From positions 24,205 through 88,204 of IMG/VR virus record IMGVR_UViG_3300009091_000012: a DNA stretch of 64,000 nucleotides. One strand, written 5' to 3'. Origin of the DNA: a virus. The translations under genes and the position numbers were made by a program. The notes beneath the pieces are model-generated. The model was not told the DNA's origin. It saw only the letters and a list, made by a program, of their open reading frames with translations, and did not search any database. Position 1 is the first letter of the stretch, and the number at the start of each line of letters is the position of its first letter. Shown in pieces: positions 18,846 through 39,024 of the stretch.

Positions 18846-18851
18846 AGGCGA

Positions 18852-18892
18852 AACGGGGCGAAAGCCCCGTTGTACCGGGTGGTTCCCGGTAC
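18852..18892 (+). other. Two tandem 8-bp hairpins
   Basis: AACGGGGC-GAAA-GCCCCGTT (GNRA tetraloop) is directly followed by GTACCGGG-5 nt-CCCGGTAC. They separate two genes; there is no U-tract, so RNA processing or stability elements are as likely as termination. Confidence 0.6.
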
Positions 18893-18937
18893 CTGATGAG
18901 CCAGCCGCTCGACTTCGTCTTTGAAAGGGGTATGCCT

Positions 18938-24016: not shown

Positions 24017-24543
24017 GCCATCCGTTGCTCACCATGTGCCAGGAACTCATCGACGAGAACCTGCGTCTCAAGAGCGACCTCAACATGATGTTCTTCGAGA
24101 AGGAGGCGCTCCAGCAGGCGCTGGAAGCGAGTGAGGCGTTGCTCCATCAAGAGCAACTTCGGAACGAGAAGGTGGTGCTTGACCTCAGTGGTATGCTTGG
24201 CCATACCTTGCAAAAGATCGAGCAGTTGCAGGAAGAACTGCATCAGGCACAGCTTCGAGCGGACTCGATGAAGTTCAGGATCATCGACCTGGAGAACGAG
24301 GCGCGATATCCCGAGATCCGAGCGGCCAAGGACGCCGAGTTCCTGAAGAAACGCTGCACCGAGTGTGAGGAGGAAGGCTGTCCTGGCCTTATCCAGTGCC
24401 CCAAGTGTGGGTACAAGGAGCACGGTGCGAGTGCTCTTACCCACGTTCAGGACCACGGCTACTGCCACGAGTGTCTGGTGGCATGGCAATACGGGGAGGA
24501 TAAATGGCAACACAACGGGGAGGATGAAGATGACTCTGTTTGA
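24013..24543 (+). CDS. Coiled-coil protein with zinc ribbon (176 aa)
   Basis: ATG 24013 follows GGGAGGTGGG. Residues about 10-105 form a long coiled coil; residues about 115-156 hold CTEC, CPKC and CHEC pairs, consistent with zinc ribbons. Acidic tail. Possibly a protein-protein adaptor; no family recognised. Confidence 0.55.
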   Translation: MSHPLLTMCQELIDENLRLKSDLNMMFFEKEALQQALEASEALLHQEQLRNEKVVLDLSGMLGHTLQKIEQLQEELHQAQLRADSMKFRIIDLENEARYPEIRAAKDAEFLKKRCTECEEEGCPGLIQCPKCGYKEHGASALTHVQDHGYCHECLVAWQYGEDKWQHNGEDEDDSV

Positions 24544-30959: not shown

Positions 30960-31164
30960 GACCACGATCACGTTCGAGGTTCTGAGTGAGGGGCCTATCC
31001 CGAGCCATTGGGATCTGGCGCGGATTCACGAGGAGACGATTTCCGGGGAGTGGTCCGGGAAGTCGGAAGTCACTTCAGTGAAGGAACTGACCGAGGAGGA
31101 GCTGATCCGCGAGTGCCATGAGCATGGTACGGACCCCCACTTCTTCCTGATTGACAAACCTTGA
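30943..31164 (+). CDS. Unknown small protein (73 aa)
   Basis: ATG 30943 behind GAGCGCGGGG, inside the end of the previous gene. N-terminal strand, acidic helical C-terminus. Its last codons contain the -35 box of the next promoter. Confidence 0.45.
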   Translation: MSPFYRTTITFEVLSEGPIPSHWDLARIHEETISGEWSGKSEVTSVKELTEEELIRECHEHGTDPHFFLIDKP

Positions 31165-31179
31165 AAACCGTGATATCAT
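31151..31179 (+). promoter_or_regulatory. Sigma70-like promoter for AAA/VWA operon
   Basis: Perfect TTGACA (31151-31156), 17-nt spacer, TATCAT (31174-31179), 34 nt before the ATPase ATG. Confidence 0.75.
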
Positions 31180-31212
31180 CAACCGTAACTGGCACTTAGA
31201 CGGAGGCCAGAC

Positions 31213-32193
31213 ATGGAAGTAATCACCATCGAAGCGGGTCAGGTGTTCCCCCAGCTCAAGGGGGAGAACGCCAAGGTGAAGATTCCCTTCGGCCAGTATG
31301 ACGATAACGATCCCGAGGATCAGCGGCTCAAGGCTCTGATTCCGGCAGTGGATCCGTACTATCGTTTCCCTGGTCGGCAGGTGATCTCGCTGCTGTTGGC
31401 TTTCGCCAACCGCGACAACGTCCTGCTCGTGGGATCGACCGGTGTTGGTAAGACGATGCTGGGGATGCAGCTCGCGGCAAAGGTCATGCTGCCCGCCGTC
31501 AGGTTGAACCTGCACGGTGAGCTGGGATCGCCGGAGCTGTTCGGCTACTTCGGGTTGAGCAACCCCAACATTCTGAACGATGACGGGTGGAAGTGGACCA
31601 CCTTGACCAAGGCGATCCAGCACCCGTGCGTCCTGCTGCTGGATGAGTGGGATTCCATCAGGGCTGAGCTGTCGATCGGCCTTCAGCGGCTGTTGGAAGA
31701 TCACCAGCCCGGTGTGATGCTGCCGGAGCGGGATCAGTTTATCCCTCGGCATAAGGACTGCATCATCATCGCCACCGCGAACACCCGAGGGCTGGGTGAC
31801 GAGACCGGCCTGTATGCCGGGACCGGTGCTCAGAACTTCGCGCAGTTGAACAGGTTCCATCTGGTGATGGAGATGGAGCCGCTGCCGCCCAAGAATCTGG
31901 CGCAGATTCTGGAGAAGGTGGAGTTCTACAACCAGAGCTTGAAGCCGGAATTGGTGGATGCGCTCACCAAGTTCTATGCGGCAACCCTGTCCTCGTGGGA
32001 GCAGAACGGGCTGTCCACTCCGATCTCCGTGAGGATGATGCTGCACTTCGCCAAGTACTTCCTGGTGCTGAAGTACGAGGCATTGGGGATGACCATCCTG
32101 TCCAAGCTGCCCACAGCCAGGGACAGGGAGATCATGCTGGGTATCGCTGATCGGTTCAACTTCGTTGATCCGAACCGAACTGCCGCCAAGTAG
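31213..32193 (+). CDS. MoxR/CobS-like AAA+ ATPase
   Basis: 326 aa AAA+ protein. Walker A GSTGVGKT (74-81), the MoxR/CobS-type ELGSPELFGY segment (103-112), Walker B LLLDEWD (141-147), sensor-1 IIATANTRG (about 191-199) and a C-terminal helical lid. Such ATPases pair with VWA-domain proteins to remodel target complexes or, in CobS/CobT, to drive metal insertion; the next gene encodes exactly such a VWA partner. It has its own consensus promoter and a GGAGG site. CobN, the third cobaltochelatase subunit, is not present in the window, so a chaperone role in virion assembly or host takeover is as plausible as cobalamin metabolism. Confidence 0.85.
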   Translation: MEVITIEAGQVFPQLKGENAKVKIPFGQYDDNDPEDQRLKALIPAVDPYYRFPGRQVISLLLAFANRDNVLLVGSTGVGKTMLGMQLAAKVMLPAVRLNLHGELGSPELFGYFGLSNPNILNDDGWKWTTLTKAIQHPCVLLLDEWDSIRAELSIGLQRLLEDHQPGVMLPERDQFIPRHKDCIIIATANTRGLGDETGLYAGTGAQNFAQLNRFHLVMEMEPLPPKNLAQILEKVEFYNQSLKPELVDALTKFYAATLSSWEQNGLSTPISVRMMLHFAKYFLVLKYEALGMTILSKLPTARDREIMLGIADRFNFVDPNRTAAK

Positions 32194-32202
32194 GAGGCAG
32201 CC

Positions 32203-34830
32203 ATGGACGAAATGGAAGAGTGGGCCACGCTAGAGCTGGCCATGGCAGAACTGGGTGTCAAACACATGCGCGACCTGTTCGGGGGGAACATCCCCGTCGC
32301 GCAGGTTCTGCAAGGAATTGCGGCTGGCTTGGCCGACTGCGATGTCACGGTCGTGGTAGACCCGAAAGTGACAGTTCCGCAGGCGATCCCGAGCCAGAGA
32401 AAGATCCTTCTTCCAGCCCACGTGAAGTCGGAGCGGGCGTTGCTGATCGTGTCCTGGTATCTCGATCATGAGACCGGGCATATCATCTTCACCCCGCCGC
32501 CCGAGAACACCGTGGAAGGCTGGAAGCAACAGTCCCGTATGCTCGATGTCTGCAAGGCAAAGGGCTATACGGAGATCCCGGAAGAGCTGATCAAGACGGC
32601 GCACTTCTTCCTCAACTGTGTTGAGGATGCTCGCGTCGAAAACCTGATGGTACGCCGGTTTCCGGGGTGCAAGAAGCACTTCATCGGCGGGCCGATTGCG
32701 TTGGATCTGCAAGATCCGTTCACGCCGACGCTGGAGAAAGCCAAGGAGATCCAGGCAGCGAACAACCTGCCGCATCCACCGCTGAATCCGTTCTTCGTCG
32801 GAGAGTTGCACGCGAATGCGCTTCTGAACGGTAAGCACGGCCAGTTGGACCGGGACTATATCCGGGGAATCGCGCCGCCGCATGTGAGCTGGGTGCTCGA
32901 TGCAGTGGACGATACCTTCGGGGATATCCGGGATGTGTGCGCCGTGACGTTGGAAGATCTGGCAGCGCGGGTGGATAAGGTCATGGCGCTTATCCTGGAG
33001 AAAAAGCTCCCGGATATGAGTGAGGCCGAAGAGAGCGAAGGCGATCAGGAAGGCGAGGAGCAGGGTGGCGACGATCGCTTTGCCGAAGAGTTCGCCAAGC
33101 CCAAGAAGGGCAAGAAGAGCAAGAAGGGCAAGAAGGGAGACAAGGATGAGCAATCCGATAGTGACTCCGATGGAGCAGATGAAGCTGGAGAAGGAGATTC
33201 TGACGAATCTGAGTCCGGAGACGGAAGCGATAATGATGCTGGTGCAGGAAGCGTGGGAGACGAAGATGAGTCAGATTCGGAAGGAGAATCGGACTCTGAG
33301 GGAGGAGAAGGAGACGCTGCTGGCGAACATGATGGCAGCGAGGAGGACGATGAGGATTCTGAAGACGATGATTCAGAATCTGATGGCGTATCCGGGGCCG
33401 GAGATGACGAAGACGATTCAGATGAAGGTGATTCGGCGTCTGGGGGAGACGATGAAGAGGGCGACGACGGAGATGACGAGGATGACGCCGATGAAGATTC
33501 TGGAGACGACGGCACCGAAGGCGATGACCAAGATGATGAAGGAGATCGAGACGGAAGCGAAGAAGGCGAAGAGGACGCTGAGGGAGATGGAGAAGACGAA
33601 GAAGAAGTCGCTGCCGAAGGCGATTCCGACGACGCGCTGACCGGAGACATCAGCAAGCAGGCGCAGTTCGATCAGTTGATTGAGTGGGCGCAGGATGCTC
33701 AGACGGACATGGCGCAGCTCATGCGAGAGGCGCAGGAAGCGGAGGAAGCGGCCAAGCAGCAAGCGGCTGTAGAGTCGAACAGCGCCACAGCCGGTTCACC
33801 GAGTATGGAGCATGCCCCGGATGCGGAGGGGATGCCTGACGAGTATCTGGCACGGTTGGACCCCGGAGTCGGGGTGGTCGTGATCGCGGATCAGGATCTG
33901 GACGCACTGGTTCAGGATGATGACTCCGCCTTCCAGGAGTATGACCGGTTTATCCAGGAGATTATGCCCCATGATCTGGGGCCAGCCGCTCGGCGGCTGA
34001 TGGGCAAGTTCAAGAGCGCACCGGGCAAAGCGTGGCAGGGGAATCGGATCAACCCGAAGATGCTGCAACCGATCATGTCCGGACACGCTCATGGCCGACC
34101 GCTGTATCTCCGACGCCAGGAGACGGTGCAAAGCAAAAAGGGCGTGGTCGTCATGCTGTGCATCGATTGCTCAGGCTCGATGATCTCGGATGTGCCGGGG
34201 TTGAATCTCCCGAGACCGCACAACTCCAAGTTCGCGATCTCGCACGCAGCAGGCCGGGGGATCGCTCGGCTATTGCAGCGGATACAGGTGCCGTTTGCGG
34301 TGATGGGCTACACCACCGATACGACGAACAACAATCGTCGTAACTATAACGCATCGAGGCAGATGGACATCGTCAACTTCTTGTTCAAGGATTTCCACGA
34401 GCCGTGGACGACTTGTGAGCAGAAGATGCTGGCGATGAACGCTTTCACTCGCACGACTTATAAGGGCCGGTATATCTATCCGGAAACCAATTCCGATGGT
34501 GAGTCGCTGCTGTGGGCGGCGACACAGATCATCACCCGACCGGAGGATCGGAAGATCATGATCGTGCTGTCGGATGGGCTGCCAGCGGCAGGGGACTACA
34601 CGATGCAGTCCAAGTTCCTGAAGTGGGCAGTGCGCCGGATCGAGATCGCGGGCATTCACATTGGAGCGTTGGGTATTGGAGATCGTGGTGTGACCCACTA
34701 CTACCGGATGTATGAACTGCTGGATGTGTTCCCCCAAGGTTGGGGAGACAAGCACACGGCACCGTTCCTCATCCAGGAGAAGCTGATCACACTCATCGAT
34801 CGGTTGGCAACGGACCAGACGGGGAGCTAA
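32203..34830 (+). CDS. CobT-like zincin-type/VWA protein with acidic linker
   Basis: 875 aa. Residues 1-150 hold HETGH (89-93), an HEXXH zincin motif, and VEDARVE (140-146), whose Glu could be the third zinc ligand. Residues about 270-490 are a highly acidic Asp/Glu/Ser/Gly low-complexity linker with a short Lys cluster at its start. The C-terminal VWA domain begins near 645 with VVVMLCIDCSGSM (MIDAS DxSxS, Asp655) and IVLSDGLPAAGDY near 786-798. This is the layout of CobT-type partners of MoxR/CobS ATPases, and the ATPase is the preceding gene (9 nt gap, AGGAGG site). The VWA would bind targets through a metal ion; whether the zincin half is proteolytic is unknown. Confidence 0.8.
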   Translation: MDEMEEWATLELAMAELGVKHMRDLFGGNIPVAQVLQGIAAGLADCDVTVVVDPKVTVPQAIPSQRKILLPAHVKSERALLIVSWYLDHETGHIIFTPPPENTVEGWKQQSRMLDVCKAKGYTEIPEELIKTAHFFLNCVEDARVENLMVRRFPGCKKHFIGGPIALDLQDPFTPTLEKAKEIQAANNLPHPPLNPFFVGELHANALLNGKHGQLDRDYIRGIAPPHVSWVLDAVDDTFGDIRDVCAVTLEDLAARVDKVMALILEKKLPDMSEAEESEGDQEGEEQGGDDRFAEEFAKPKKGKKSKKGKKGDKDEQSDSDSDGADEAGEGDSDESESGDGSDNDAGAGSVGDEDESDSEGESDSEGGEGDAAGEHDGSEEDDEDSEDDDSESDGVSGAGDDEDDSDEGDSASGGDDEEGDDGDDEDDADEDSGDDGTEGDDQDDEGDRDGSEEGEEDAEGDGEDEEEVAAEGDSDDALTGDISKQAQFDQLIEWAQDAQTDMAQLMREAQEAEEAAKQQAAVESNSATAGSPSMEHAPDAEGMPDEYLARLDPGVGVVVIADQDLDALVQDDDSAFQEYDRFIQEIMPHDLGPAARRLMGKFKSAPGKAWQGNRINPKMLQPIMSGHAHGRPLYLRRQETVQSKKGVVVMLCIDCSGSMISDVPGLNLPRPHNSKFAISHAAGRGIARLLQRIQVPFAVMGYTTDTTNNNRRNYNASRQMDIVNFLFKDFHEPWTTCEQKMLAMNAFTRTTYKGRYIYPETNSDGESLLWAATQIITRPEDRKIMIVLSDGLPAAGDYTMQSKFLKWAVRRIEIAGIHIGALGIGDRGVTHYYRMYELLDVFPQGWGDKHTAPFLIQEKLITLIDRLATDQTGS
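33146..33640 (+). CDS. Possible overprinted Met/Lys/Glu-rich ORF inside VWA gene
   Basis: A second reading frame within the acidic linker is open from before 33020; ATG 33146 has AAGGGAGA 5 nt upstream. It gives about 164 aa with a coiled-coil-like start (MEQMKLEKEILTNLSPETEA). Codons such as GAT/GAC/GAA read one base later become ATG/ACG/AAG, so the Met/Thr/Lys richness may be an accident. Confidence 0.2.
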   Translation: MSNPIVTPMEQMKLEKEILTNLSPETEAIMMLVQEAWETKMSQIRKENRTLREEKETLLANMMAARRTMRILKTMIQNLMAYPGPEMTKTIQMKVIRRLGETMKRATTEMTRMTPMKILETTAPKAMTKMMKEIETEAKKAKRTLREMEKTKKKSLPKAIPTTR

Positions 34831-34839
34831 GGGGAACAT

Positions 34840-36699
34840 ATGCGCTCACTGTCAGTGACCCAGGGTGTTGTACTGGACCCGTTTTCGATTCTTGCCTCGG
34901 GGGTGATGCGCCAGCATGGAGGGCTGAAGATCACGGGCGATCTGGACTGCCTGCACGGAGAAGCCAGATTCAAACAAGCGTTTGTCAATGCGTGCTACTT
35001 CGCTGAGTCGATGACCGTGGTAGGACCGATCGCTCAGCTTATCCAGGAGCATACGGACCCTGCAACGCACGCAGCGTTGGCATGGCGGGCAACTCCGACG
35101 ACTGGGGATAACCGTGACTTCTTCAACCAGTTGAAGCAGTTCATGGCCCAGAATAACCTGGACAAGATCCCCTCGGATCTGATCTTCGGTTCCATGTCGG
35201 ACGTGGACTATCGGCTGCATACGATGCCGGATGTGACGTTGGGGCATAAGCGCAACGACTATGGCTCGGATGACTTCCAGTCGAGGCTGTTCGAGCAGCT
35301 CTTTCAGAGCACGTGGCGGCAGTTCCGGATCGACTCTAGAGCGCGGGCTTTGAGGCCGAATCTGGACCAGTCGTTCTTCACGTATAGACCGGAATCGATC
35401 ATTAAGGGCAGTCCGGTATCGGCACTGATGGCGGTGATCTTCACCTTCAAGAAGCCGGTGGGGCCTCTGGCGGTGGGAGAGCTGACCAATCTGGCATCGT
35501 GGCCACCCGTGGTGTTCCTGCTGCCGGTGTTGGCTCCGGCGTTCGCTTCCATTGATGATGACGATGTCTACCATAGCCCAGCGGGGGCAGTGGTCCGGAA
35601 TCAACCGGCGATGATGACCTATCAGCTCCGGATTCCGGAGAGCAACAAGGTGAGGAACCATACGCTGCCTTATGGTCAGCCGTATCGGTTGTCCTCGGTG
35701 CATTCGTGGGGCAAGGAGCCGGATACGCTGCGGTCGCTGTCGGACGTGTTCAAGGCTCTGTGGTCGCAGGCCGCGCAGTACTCAGCCTGGAATCTTCGGT
35801 ATGAGTGGGACGCGAAGGCGACCTCGTTGCCGGTCGGAGAGCTGGCTCTGGATCCGATCGGAGCCGGTCGGCGTATCCGGAGTCATAACCGGTTCTCCGG
35901 CAGGTATCCGCTGCACGCTCCGGCGATGCTGTGGGAGACGGGGATCTATAGCGTATCGGGAGGTAGTGCTCCGAGGCTGTGGGGTTGGGAACCTGAGCGA
36001 GGTGAGAGTCAGTACATGGATTTCGTTCACCGAGCGCATCTGTTCACGAATCAGCTTCGCTCGTATCGTAGTGGTGGTGGCAAGGAGTTCCTGTTCGTCT
36101 TTCCGAGCTACTTCCAAGAGGAAGTGAGCGATCACTTCCTGCCGACTGCTATCACCTTGGCTCGTTGGATGCTGGTGAAGCACGCCGGGTTGGAGGACTT
36201 CGTGGACGGGCATGTTGTTGCCACGAATAAGCCGGGGGATGGTGGAGCCACAGCGGAAGAGCTGGCGGCTGACCCGGAGCTGGAGCCTGGGGTTGGCGGA
36301 CGGTCTCTTGCGGATCGGCTGGCCGATCACCTGGGACAACAGAATATGCAGAACGAGGGTGCGCTGCCGGTGCATCGGGTGAAAACGCCTATCGGTTTCG
36401 ATAAGACCGGTGACCCGACTGTGTTCGGGCTGGCGGTTGATACGACTGCCGAAAACGTGATGCACTATCACGAAGCGCACAACGGTATCAACATTACCGA
36501 CGAGAACCTGGAGAAGATGGTCAACGGTGTCCAGGTCCAGGGTAACTTCAAGTTCCTCGATGCTTTCTGCTCCAAGAGCACGAAGGATCTGACGGACGTG
36601 TTCGCCACCGTGAGCAAGAAAGCCGTGTCGAAGATGCGGGCTGGCGAACTCGTGGACGAGAGCATGGTGGTCGATCTGTTCGACGACATGCTGGACTAA
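34840..36699 (+). CDS. Unknown operon partner of AAA/VWA pair (619 aa)
   Basis: Starts 9 nt after the VWA gene behind AAGGGGAAC. A large soluble protein; no Walker, nuclease or protease motif seen. Regions of note: a hydrophobic PPVVFLLPVLAPAFASIDDD near 223-242, and an acidic C-terminus ending MVVDLFDDMLD that resembles a protein-docking tail. Its conserved placement after an AAA/VWA pair would make it a candidate substrate or third subunit. I do not recognise the family. Confidence 0.6.
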   Translation: MRSLSVTQGVVLDPFSILASGVMRQHGGLKITGDLDCLHGEARFKQAFVNACYFAESMTVVGPIAQLIQEHTDPATHAALAWRATPTTGDNRDFFNQLKQFMAQNNLDKIPSDLIFGSMSDVDYRLHTMPDVTLGHKRNDYGSDDFQSRLFEQLFQSTWRQFRIDSRARALRPNLDQSFFTYRPESIIKGSPVSALMAVIFTFKKPVGPLAVGELTNLASWPPVVFLLPVLAPAFASIDDDDVYHSPAGAVVRNQPAMMTYQLRIPESNKVRNHTLPYGQPYRLSSVHSWGKEPDTLRSLSDVFKALWSQAAQYSAWNLRYEWDAKATSLPVGELALDPIGAGRRIRSHNRFSGRYPLHAPAMLWETGIYSVSGGSAPRLWGWEPERGESQYMDFVHRAHLFTNQLRSYRSGGGKEFLFVFPSYFQEEVSDHFLPTAITLARWMLVKHAGLEDFVDGHVVATNKPGDGGATAEELAADPELEPGVGGRSLADRLADHLGQQNMQNEGALPVHRVKTPIGFDKTGDPTVFGLAVDTTAENVMHYHEAHNGINITDENLEKMVNGVQVQGNFKFLDAFCSKSTKDLTDVFATVSKKAVSKMRAGELVDESMVVDLFDDMLD

Positions 36700-36712
36700 G
36701 CAGGGGGATAAC

Positions 36713-37621
36713 ATGGACACCTCTCTGGTTCTTGGTCGAACAGGATCGTTTGACGAGGAGACAGGGCTGTTTGTCCTGACAGGCGGGTATCCCGATTTTG
36801 GCTTAACGCCGGAAACGGTGCGTGCTATCGGTAAAAGCCGGGATGGGGTGGAGATGAACTCCACCCTTCCGTTCATGGACAATAAGCTCCAGACCAAGAA
36901 CAACGTGATGTTTGTCGATCAGACGCCGGGTGCTTTCAAAGATCCGGTGAAGTTTGCAGGAGGGCTTAAGACACTCATCGACCATTGCGAGCGTGTTGCG
37001 GTTCATAAGGGAGTTTTTGCACTGGATGTTTCTTCAGACTCGATGTTTTATCGGTGGGGCATCGCGAAGATCGCAGAGCGCCGGTACGTGACTGAGTGGA
37101 TGGGGTTGTTGCCCCCAGAGCATGTACTAAAGGTGATCCTCAAGCAACAGGGGGTGGCAACGAAGCGTACCATCCTCTTTGCGACTGGTGTTCCACCGTC
37201 AGCCGGTGGCCGGATGTGGTTGGTGTCACCACACGGTTTCCCGTGGTGGGGTGAGCAGTCCAAGGTGGTCCTCGACATGGGCGGCTCGACTGATATCGAG
37301 CAGGCTATGATGATGAATAAGTTCTTGTTCCTGCTTGTCCCACATGCCGTCCCGATGATCTCCGGTCACCGGAAGCTGCAACAGGATGAGCTAAATCCAC
37401 GAATCCTCTGCTACGACAGTTTTGACGAAGGGGCTTACCCTCTGGAGGTGGATAGCTTTTTGGCTAAGGTGATCCAGAGCAGCACGACGTTACAGCAGGG
37501 AGCCGATCGCTTGCGGTGGCTGTATGAGAATGCAGCGGCAGGGGCCGGGGTCGCCGCCCAGGCCCAGGATTTCGGGGTGGACCACGCCTTGGCCCTGCCC
37601 GAGAACGACGAGATGTGGTGA
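36713..37621 (+). CDS. Unknown operon protein (302 aa)
   Basis: ATG 36713 behind CAGGGGGA, 13 nt after the 619-aa gene. Alpha/beta composition; segments such as VFALDVSSDSMFYRWGIAKI and TILFATGVPPSAGG look like a globular enzyme-type fold, and VFALDVSSDSM has a VWA-like DxSxS look (D-V-S-S-D), so a degenerate VWA-like domain is possible. C-terminus Ala-rich then acidic. Unknown. Confidence 0.55.
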   Translation: MDTSLVLGRTGSFDEETGLFVLTGGYPDFGLTPETVRAIGKSRDGVEMNSTLPFMDNKLQTKNNVMFVDQTPGAFKDPVKFAGGLKTLIDHCERVAVHKGVFALDVSSDSMFYRWGIAKIAERRYVTEWMGLLPPEHVLKVILKQQGVATKRTILFATGVPPSAGGRMWLVSPHGFPWWGEQSKVVLDMGGSTDIEQAMMMNKFLFLLVPHAVPMISGHRKLQQDELNPRILCYDSFDEGAYPLEVDSFLAKVIQSSTTLQQGADRLRWLYENAAAGAGVAAQAQDFGVDHALALPENDEMW

Positions 37622-37624
37622 GGT

Positions 37625-38236
37625 ATGTCCTACGCAAAGACGTATAAGGCTACGTTTCTTGAAGATATCAGTCAATTCCCCAGGGTTTGGAACTATGGTC
37701 AGTACCGGAGCAACAACTACGGTGAGCACACTGTGGCGGTGTCGGTTGGTGGAGTAGACTTTTTCTATAGCTACAAGACGCTGGTTGCGTTTTCTGATGA
37801 TAAGACTCTTGTTGTGCATAGCAACAATTGGACCCGAACAACCGGCAAGCACCTGACCTGGATCAAGCGAGCACGTCCAGCGGGGATGCCTTGCATTACT
37901 GCTGATCATCCTACATTCGTAGCGATGCTCTATAACCTGTTGAGAGCAACAGGGTTAGTCGCCCGCAACTACGCGAAGAAGGTGCCTTGTAGGGTTCAGG
38001 CGTTGGAGACTGGGGAGATTATCGATGGGAATATCCCGTCAGCGGTGACCCTGACCCCTGGGCGAGCGTACGTACGAGATCAGGAACGGAAGATGGCGAA
38101 GGCAAAGGAGAAGGAGGAGGAGAAGGCGCGTAAGCTGCGCCTTAAGCTCCGGAAGGAACGGCGGTTGGAGAAGAAGCGACGGGAGGAGATGTTTTCGGGG
38201 TTGATGCCCCTTGAGATAGTGGAGGAAATGCTGTGA
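37625..38236 (+). CDS. Unknown protein with basic coiled-coil tail (203 aa)
   Basis: Follows the previous stop by 3 nt. The first about 150 residues are beta-rich (AVSVGGVDFFYSYKTLVAF); the last 55 form a Lys/Arg/Glu helix (EKEEEKARKLRLKLRKERRL). The stop overlaps the next GTG. Unknown. Confidence 0.55.
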   Translation: MSYAKTYKATFLEDISQFPRVWNYGQYRSNNYGEHTVAVSVGGVDFFYSYKTLVAFSDDKTLVVHSNNWTRTTGKHLTWIKRARPAGMPCITADHPTFVAMLYNLLRATGLVARNYAKKVPCRVQALETGEIIDGNIPSAVTLTPGRAYVRDQERKMAKAKEKEEEKARKLRLKLRKERRLEKKRREEMFSGLMPLEIVEEML

Positions 38237-39024
38237 GCCGAGTGGCGCTGGCAGAGGCAGTTGAGCAAGGGCTGGAGAATCCGTTCACGACCGAATATCT
38301 GGAAAAGGAAATCCAGTTTTACAACCCGGTGCCGTATGCCAAGGATGGGTTGGTCCTCAAGCTCAAATCGATCAAACACCCTGTCCGCATCGATGAGTAC
38401 CTCAACAAGCAGATGGTGTGTGAGGGACCGGCTATCCCGATCCTTACGTTTGACGGTACGATCTGGATGAGCCTGACGTGGCTGGAAGTGGAGTCGCATT
38501 GGGTACCGTTCCAGACCTTTGGCGGGGATATCCTGGTTGGTGGCCTCGGGATGGGGTATGCGGCGCTTCGGTTCGCGGCGATGGAGCATGTTGATTCCGT
38601 CACCGTGTACGAGACGGACAAGAGGGTGATCGACTTCTTCCAGGCTACCCAAGGAGATCGCCCGGAGCAGGCTAAGATCCGGGTTATCCACGAGGACATC
38701 CACAAGGCCCAGGGCCGCTACGAGTTCGCCTTTATTGATATCTATCCGACGCTATTGCCGGATGAGCTGCTGAGGGACGCGAGGTTCTTCTGTGAGAGCC
38801 GTCCTGGTCTGTCGATCATGGAGACTCCCCACTTCTGGGGGCAGGAGCTTGCGTGGCTGACCCTGATGCAGCGGCGGGTGTACAAGCCGTTTAGTCTGTC
38901 CTATGTCGAGCGTATGTTCTTTGAGTATTGGTGGAAAACAGATAAGCCTGATCTTGCCCGTGAGATCGAGGATGTTCGCTTCTGTTCATCTTTGGCGAAG
39001 GTGATGAGCAGGGTGGAGGACTAA
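38233..39024 (+). CDS. Class I SAM-dependent methyltransferase-like protein
   Basis: 263 aa from GTG 38233. The Rossmann signature GGDILVGGLGMGYAALRFA (about 97-115) gives the glycine-rich SAM loop; VTVYETDKRVIDFF (about 122-135) has the acidic residue that binds the ribose; IRVIHEDIHKAQ and YEFAFIDIYPTL are the later strands. The order resembles spermidine-synthase-like methyltransferases. No target-recognition domain is evident, so the substrate (small molecule, protein or nucleic acid) is unknown. Confidence 0.72.
   Translation: MSRVALAEAVEQGLENPFTTEYLEKEIQFYNPVPYAKDGLVLKLKSIKHPVRIDEYLNKQMVCEGPAIPILTFDGTIWMSLTWLEVESHWVPFQTFGGDILVGGLGMGYAALRFAAMEHVDSVTVYETDKRVIDFFQATQGDRPEQAKIRVIHEDIHKAQGRYEFAFIDIYPTLLPDELLRDARFFCESRPGLSIMETPHFWGQELAWLTLMQRRVYKPFSLSYVERMFFEYWWKTDKPDLAREIEDVRFCSSLAKVMSRVED

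Follow-up and report, generated by a model that had tools for sequence, protein, structure and literature searches.

Viral AAA+/VWA Gene Pairs and Related Systems

Adjacent genes for a MoxR-type AAA+ ATPase and a metallopeptidase-VWA protein were described in group 2.2 jumbo phages by Iyer et al. (2021; PMC7824862), who proposed a role in assembly and processing. Viral cobST clusters were described by Liu et al. (2021; PMC8651126), who proposed that they make use of the CobN of the host, and in cyanophages cobS is accompanied by a gene labeled “peptidase” and is core across many hosts (PMC3037559). The authors of the Hardycor1 study assigned an AAA/VWA pair to a replication/accessory module (PMC7911831). 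An experimentally studied viral MoxR/VWA example is p618/p892 of ATV, which serves the virion tail (PMC4124505).

Here, we analyzed a 64,000-nucleotide stretch (hereafter, the window) of an 88-kb IMG/VR record (IMGVR_UViG_3300009091_000012, positions 24,205 to 88,204). The source is an uncultivated, large tailed phage of the myovirus type, which encodes sheath, baseplate, and portal proteins and in which such a pair is followed by three further genes. The initial annotation had suggested that the ATPase/VWA pair might be undescribed, but it is already present in the literature (PMC7824862; PMC8651126). The core AAA+/zincin-VWA pair is therefore known, and what is new is the presence of three extra conserved proteins of unknown kind in the same operon; no such cases were found outside the group of the window phage.

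Compared by description, the locus resembles the group 2.2 jumbo-phage pair in its adjacent MoxR-type AAA+ and N-terminal-metallopeptidase VWA genes, but differs in its long acidic linker, its three further proteins, and its replication/recombination context. It shares a phrog_249 ATPase and a CobT_C/VWA partner with the viral CobST clusters (PMC8651126; PMC3037559). However, cobT precedes cobS in the cyanophage, Rhizobium, Pseudomonas, Stenotrophomonas, SSU5-type, and ICP2 clusters, whereas this order is reversed in the window, and none of the examined viral CobST clusters contains the 619-, 302-, or 203-aa proteins. Cellular CobN-CobS-CobT shows homology in its AAA+ and VWA components and in the EQARVE/EDARVE region of CobT; by contrast, the two cellular CobTs that we aligned lack HExxH, and the window phage has no CobN and falls below the family cut-offs. 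ATV p618 (MoxR), p892 (VWA), and p387 likewise combine a MoxR ATPase, a VWA partner, and further stimulating proteins, although, again compared by description, they belong to an archaeal virus and form a virion component (PMC4124505). In the MoxR-VWA ternary systems (VMAP, iSTAND, FtsH, beta-propeller; PMC7159879), MoxR and VWA are also joined by further conserved proteins, but the bpMoxR match of the window ATPase is not significant (Pfam, E 0.16), and the 619- and 302-aa proteins have no significant Pfam match.

A Conserved Five-Gene Operon

All five open reading frames noted at 31213-38236 were found on the plus strand with the lengths claimed. They encode a CobS/MoxR-type AAA+ ATPase (31213-32193; 326 aa), a CobT-like protein (32203-34830; 875 aa), two orphan proteins of 619 aa (34840-36699) and 302 aa (36713-37621), and a 203-aa protein (37625-38236). 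The intergenic gaps are 9, 9, 13, and 3 nt, in gene order, and purine-rich, ribosome-site-like sequences lie 5' of the operon genes. While the five-gene unit held, its proposed end at 38236 did not, since a 263-aa ORF for a probable SAM methyltransferase-like protein (38233-39024, plus strand, GTG start at 38233) overlaps the 203-aa gene by 4 nt and is likely on the same transcript. Given the gaps of 3-13 nt and the 4-nt overlap, the transcript probably runs on toward the polymerase genes. The 263-aa protein matches the phrog_15480 methyltransferase family (6e-4).

The same phage is represented by a 168,260-bp record (G001) in which the operon proteins are 100% identical. We also found relatives of 176,533 bp (G002), 139,526 bp (G004), and 82,783 bp (G003), the last of which ends 1 kb past cobT. 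G001 and G002 appear to be essentially complete, because the end genes of each record are neighbors in the map of the other. The order cobS-cobT-619-302-203 is common to G001, G002, and G004, which are related uncultivated myoviruses; the downstream 263-aa protein has a 53% homolog in G002 and none in the G004 stretch compared. CobS of the window is about 64% identical to that of both G002 and G004, and CobT 50-54% (G004 and G002), while the 619-, 302-, and 203-aa proteins show identities of 39-43%, 30-32%, and 26-33%, respectively, among the three phages. Homologs of all five genes at 26-65% identity show that the ORFs did not arise by chance, and the operon is real and conserved. Some variation was observed around the pair: in G004, cobS and cobT are separated by an inserted 167-aa HNH-endonuclease-like ORF (named from sequence; locus L039, 9508-10011), and in G003, cobS-cobT is followed by a DNA methyltransferase-like ORF, with no 619-aa gene within the 1 kb between cobT and the contig end. 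It is possible that the G003 619-aa gene has been relocated to the missing part of the genome. Elsewhere in the window, a region in which few genes look convincing holds a Hammerhead type II ribozyme at 18846-18910 on the plus strand (Rfam RF02276; 44.9 bits against a gathering cut-off of 37).

The CobS-like ATPase and the CobT-like Zincin-VWA Protein

The 326-aa ATPase contains both motifs reported for it, GSTGVGKT (Walker A) and LLLDEWD (Walker B, LLLDE). It matched AAA_5 in Pfam (42.9 bits), phrog_249 in PHROG (1e-39), and the NCBIfam CobS family TIGR01650, with a score of 97.5 bits against an equivalog cut-off of 558.55. Its best PDB match by sequence is CobS (9ujv, 8.9e-28), followed by midasin, NorQ, and CbbQ. 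HETGH (residue 89), EDARVE (residue 141), an acidic linker, and a DCSGSM VWA motif (residue 655) were likewise all located in the 875-aa protein. Its zincin-like domain is N-terminal (HETGH 89-93, N138, E141), the acidic linker covers residues of about 280-480, and the VWA domain, with its MIDAS at 655, is C-terminal. The VWA part matched PF11775 (CobT_C, 2.1e-16), and the protein matched solved CobT in the PDB (21vt/9uka) and scored 43 bits against TIGR01651, for which the equivalog cut-off is 759.05; PDB searches detected no homolog of the zincin domain. The family and PDB matches support the CobS/CobT layout first proposed for the pair. As in the phage MoxR/zincin-VWA pairs, a CobS-type AAA+ protein with Walker A and B motifs adjoins a CobT_C-type VWA protein, which carries an N-terminal HExxH followed by N..ED..[IV]E, as well as a MIDAS of the form D-x-S-G-S.

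In an alignment of nine phage N-terminal domains, H89, E90, H93, N138, E141, and D142 are invariant. The S-PM2 “peptidase” and the window CobT-like protein have HExxH...EDARIE in common, and at 52 loci in bacterial genomes, most full-length CobT-like neighbors retain HExxH and N..ED. Four of the nine phage domains matched the Pfam family for the N-terminus of cellular CobT (PF06213), indicating that the viral and cellular CobT N-terminal domains are related. In place of the viral D-H-E-x-x-H, the two cellular CobTs aligned have DSMALRKACH and DGLAMRLRHH, and they keep EQARVE. Judging from these two cellular sequences, viral CobT seems to retain a gluzincin-like signature that is absent from cellular CobT. 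HExxH is absent from the CobT-like protein of Stenotrophomonas phage BUCTxx99, and in the CobT of Pseudomonas phage hairong (locus L042), SEIAK stands at the aligned HExxH position and the VWA MIDAS is intact; peptidase activity may thus not always be needed. The hairong protein suggests that the peptidase can be lost while an adaptor role persists. Shorter CobS/zincin-VWA pairs, with a CobT of about 540-610 aa and HESAH/HEAAH...ED.RVE, are present in several Desulfovibrio genomes (loci L088, L093, L114, L070, L078, and others), some of which carry multiple copies.

Three Accessory Proteins

The initial annotation could not place the 619- and 302-aa proteins, and neither gave a significant match in Pfam, PHROG, NCBIfam, PADLOC, or the PDB. 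The profile searches that it had called for assigned the pair as AAA+ and CobT/VWA. The 619-aa family has the invariant blocks PDxLRSLSDVFKALWSQAxQY and LDPxGAGRRIRxHNR, and the 302-aa family has TKRTxLFAxGxPxxGG and SGH...PRIL. The C-terminal part of the 203-aa protein is rich in lysine, arginine, and glutamate, and all three members of this family weakly matched phrog_5643, a family of unknown function (best E 0.0024). Across IMG/VR, INPHARED, PLSDB, and GTDB, homologs of the 619- and 302-aa proteins were limited to G001, G002, and G004, in scans that used short peptide patterns, which can overlook remote homologs. A degenerate DVFKALW pattern and new patterns from the alignments likewise recovered no relatives beyond these three lineages in GTDB, INPHARED, and PLSDB. 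The question had been raised whether the two orphan families always travel with the ATPase/VWA pair or occur widely without it. They accompany the pair in three of three lineages, always together, and wide occurrence without it was looked for and not found in the collections scanned.

Weak matches of the 302-aa protein to Vibrio tail fibers (E 0.07-0.4) were judged to be chance. The DVSSD segment pointed out in this protein is present, but its significance as a motif did not hold up: the relatives have AARGESAF and EARGEAVY, and this lack of conservation rules out a second MIDAS. AlphaFold models built from three-sequence alignments were unusable, with pLDDT values of 32 (619 aa) and 33 (302 aa), and at this level (about 32) they do not separate partner, client, and bystander roles of the two proteins.

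Promoter and Genomic Context

The sigma-70 promoter that had been proposed ahead of the ATPase gene was found at 31151-31179 on the plus strand, as TTGACA-N17-TATCAT with an extended -10 (TG before the -10). It ranks best among seven candidates in 27-43 kb, where 7.2 would be expected by chance at the loose threshold used. At the stricter threshold of at least 11 of 12 matches, the plus strand of the window has four strong TTGACA-17 sites (10168, 31151, 44610, and 61178), compared with 0.05 expected in first-order random sequence. In G002, G003, and G004, cobS is preceded at a distance of 57-62 nt by TTGACA-17-(TATTAT/TAACAT/CATAAT), so that a near-consensus promoter occupies the same place in four phages, and this conservation argues that the 31151 promoter is real. 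Promoters with at least 11 of 12 matches in G001 (7) and G002 (5) all lie outside the portal/sheath/baseplate block (12/12), an avoidance that is suggestive only, since the sites of the two genomes are partly homologous.

The operon precedes genes for a UDG-exonuclease, DNA polymerase A, and RecA-like, gp47-like, and gp46-like proteins. Counted by eye, 10 of 12 phage lineages have replication/recombination genes next to the pair or no more than about 8 kb from it, and several of the lineages have homologous replication modules in common. Examples include cyanophage S-PM2 (near gp46/47 and gp45/44), Ochrobactrum phage OC, Rhizobium phage N1_10, Pseudomonas phage hairong, Stenotrophomonas phage BUCTxx99, Cyrano and SSU5-type relatives, Brevibacterium phage Cantare, Vibrio phage ICP2, and a Cobavirinae phage; no clear replication context was seen in Roseobacter phage CRP-810 or Microcystis phage Mae-Yong1326-1. 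CobT-like relatives also occur in about 1000 PLSDB plasmid records, mostly enterobacterial or from Acinetobacter (e.g., pXH988_2). PLSDB entry NZ_CP019354.1 (21043-24482) is one example, and in the E. coli case examined, dnaE follows immediately after the pair.

Possible Functions of the Operon

We propose, with a probability of roughly 45%, that the operon encodes an early, replication-linked protein-remodeling and possibly proteolytic machine rather than a metal chelatase. Host sigma-70 RNA polymerase would transcribe the operon, presumably early in infection. The CobS-like ATPase would form an AAA+ ring on which the CobT-like protein docks via its VWA/MIDAS domain, and the flexible acidic linker would bring in the zincin domain, which may clip or bind a client as the ring pulls. 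The target would be a protein complex of the replication/recombination phase, either phage replisome or recombination proteins or obstructing host proteins. The 619-, 302-, and 203-aa proteins could serve as dedicated client-binding or scaffold subunits, or be clients themselves.

A phage CobST might instead join host CobN and increase cobalamin production in support of nucleotide metabolism (Liu et al., 2021). This cobaltochelatase helper role draws on the homology to CobS and CobT and on the cobalamin link for viral CobST in the literature (PMC8651126), and it is possible that the host of the window phage carries CobN, as the CobN searches covered phage genomes. However, the absence of CobN reported for the window extends beyond it, with no PF02514 match in phage genomes G000-G003; the essentially complete G001 and G002 have neither CobN nor a match to the RNR large-subunit family, and an Rfam search of the window identified no cobalamin riboswitch. 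Neither protein comes near its NCBIfam equivalog cut-off, and the zincin motif is absent from the cellular CobTs aligned. Moreover, of five genomes searched, three have a phage-type CobT alongside a cellular-type one, and homologs extend to E. coli phages and phage-plasmids, including Escherichia phages Cyrano and PhiR41_1 (recorded host K-12 MG1655), although E. coli itself gave no CobN match in a control search. The lack of CobN, RNR, and riboswitch, the missed cut-offs, and the E. coli hosts rule out cobaltochelatase as the best reading, and with the zincin motif and the replication context also weighing against it, a helper role appears very improbable.

It is unlikely, though conceivable, that the ring and the VWA-zincin protein form a virion assembly or maturation chaperone that acts on structural proteins by folding, remodeling, or processing them. 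The domain architecture is the same as that for which Iyer et al. (2021) proposed assembly (PMC7824862), ATV p618/p892, thought to act in tail development, offers a precedent (PMC4124505), a zincin could process structural proteins, and the phage is a myovirus. Yet the operon is not part of the structural block and adjoins PolA/RecA/gp46-47, its relatives are likewise near replication genes, and it has a conserved sigma-70 promoter of a kind that the structural blocks in G001 and G002 lack, so that gene context and promoter favor an early replication-phase role. An early-type promoter would also suit a counter-defense or host-takeover machine that dismantles or cleaves a host defense complex or protein, with the fast-evolving 619-, 302-, and 203-aa proteins giving specificity. 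The 302-aa (30-32%) and 203-aa (26-33%) proteins indeed diverge faster than CobS (64%), as target-facing parts may, and MoxR-VWA pairs with a third protein are known in conflict systems (PMC7159879). This explanation seems rather unlikely, as nothing links the operon to a defense system, and the core status of cobS in cyanophages of many hosts (PMC3037559) suggests a general function. PADLOC gave weak AAA-domain matches for the ATPase alone (best IetA, 3e-7) and none for the VWA, 619-, 302-, or 203-aa proteins; the operon being itself a defense system was rejected on this basis. Whatever the pair does, the three accessory proteins could be unrelated to it and share nothing but its promoter, an idea that we consider doubtful but deserving of some weight. 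In its favor, neither homology nor interaction evidence joins them to the pair, the AlphaFold models are uninformative, and further genes, one of them methyltransferase-like, come next on that strand; on the other hand, three lineages keep the three genes directly behind cobT in one order, at 26-43% identity, and the 619- and 302-aa families are always together and found nowhere else.

Implications for Viral CobST

In cyanophages, as in many phages and phage-plasmids, the ATPase carries the label “porphyrin biosynthesis” or CobS and has been taken for a B12 auxiliary metabolic gene. We tentatively put forward a broader version of the replication-linked machine, which we consider speculative. 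Five proteins, namely an AAA+ ring, a VWA protein with an active zincin, 619- and 302-aa proteins of possibly new fold, and the 203-aa protein, would seize DNA synthesis by remodeling or cutting replication-phase complexes, and viral “CobST” more widely might be a widespread replication-linked protease-chaperone misannotated as a B12 enzyme. Protein processing, not B12, is the function suggested by the viral zincin motif, by the occurrence in elements of E. coli, a host lacking CobN, and by the setting among replication genes.
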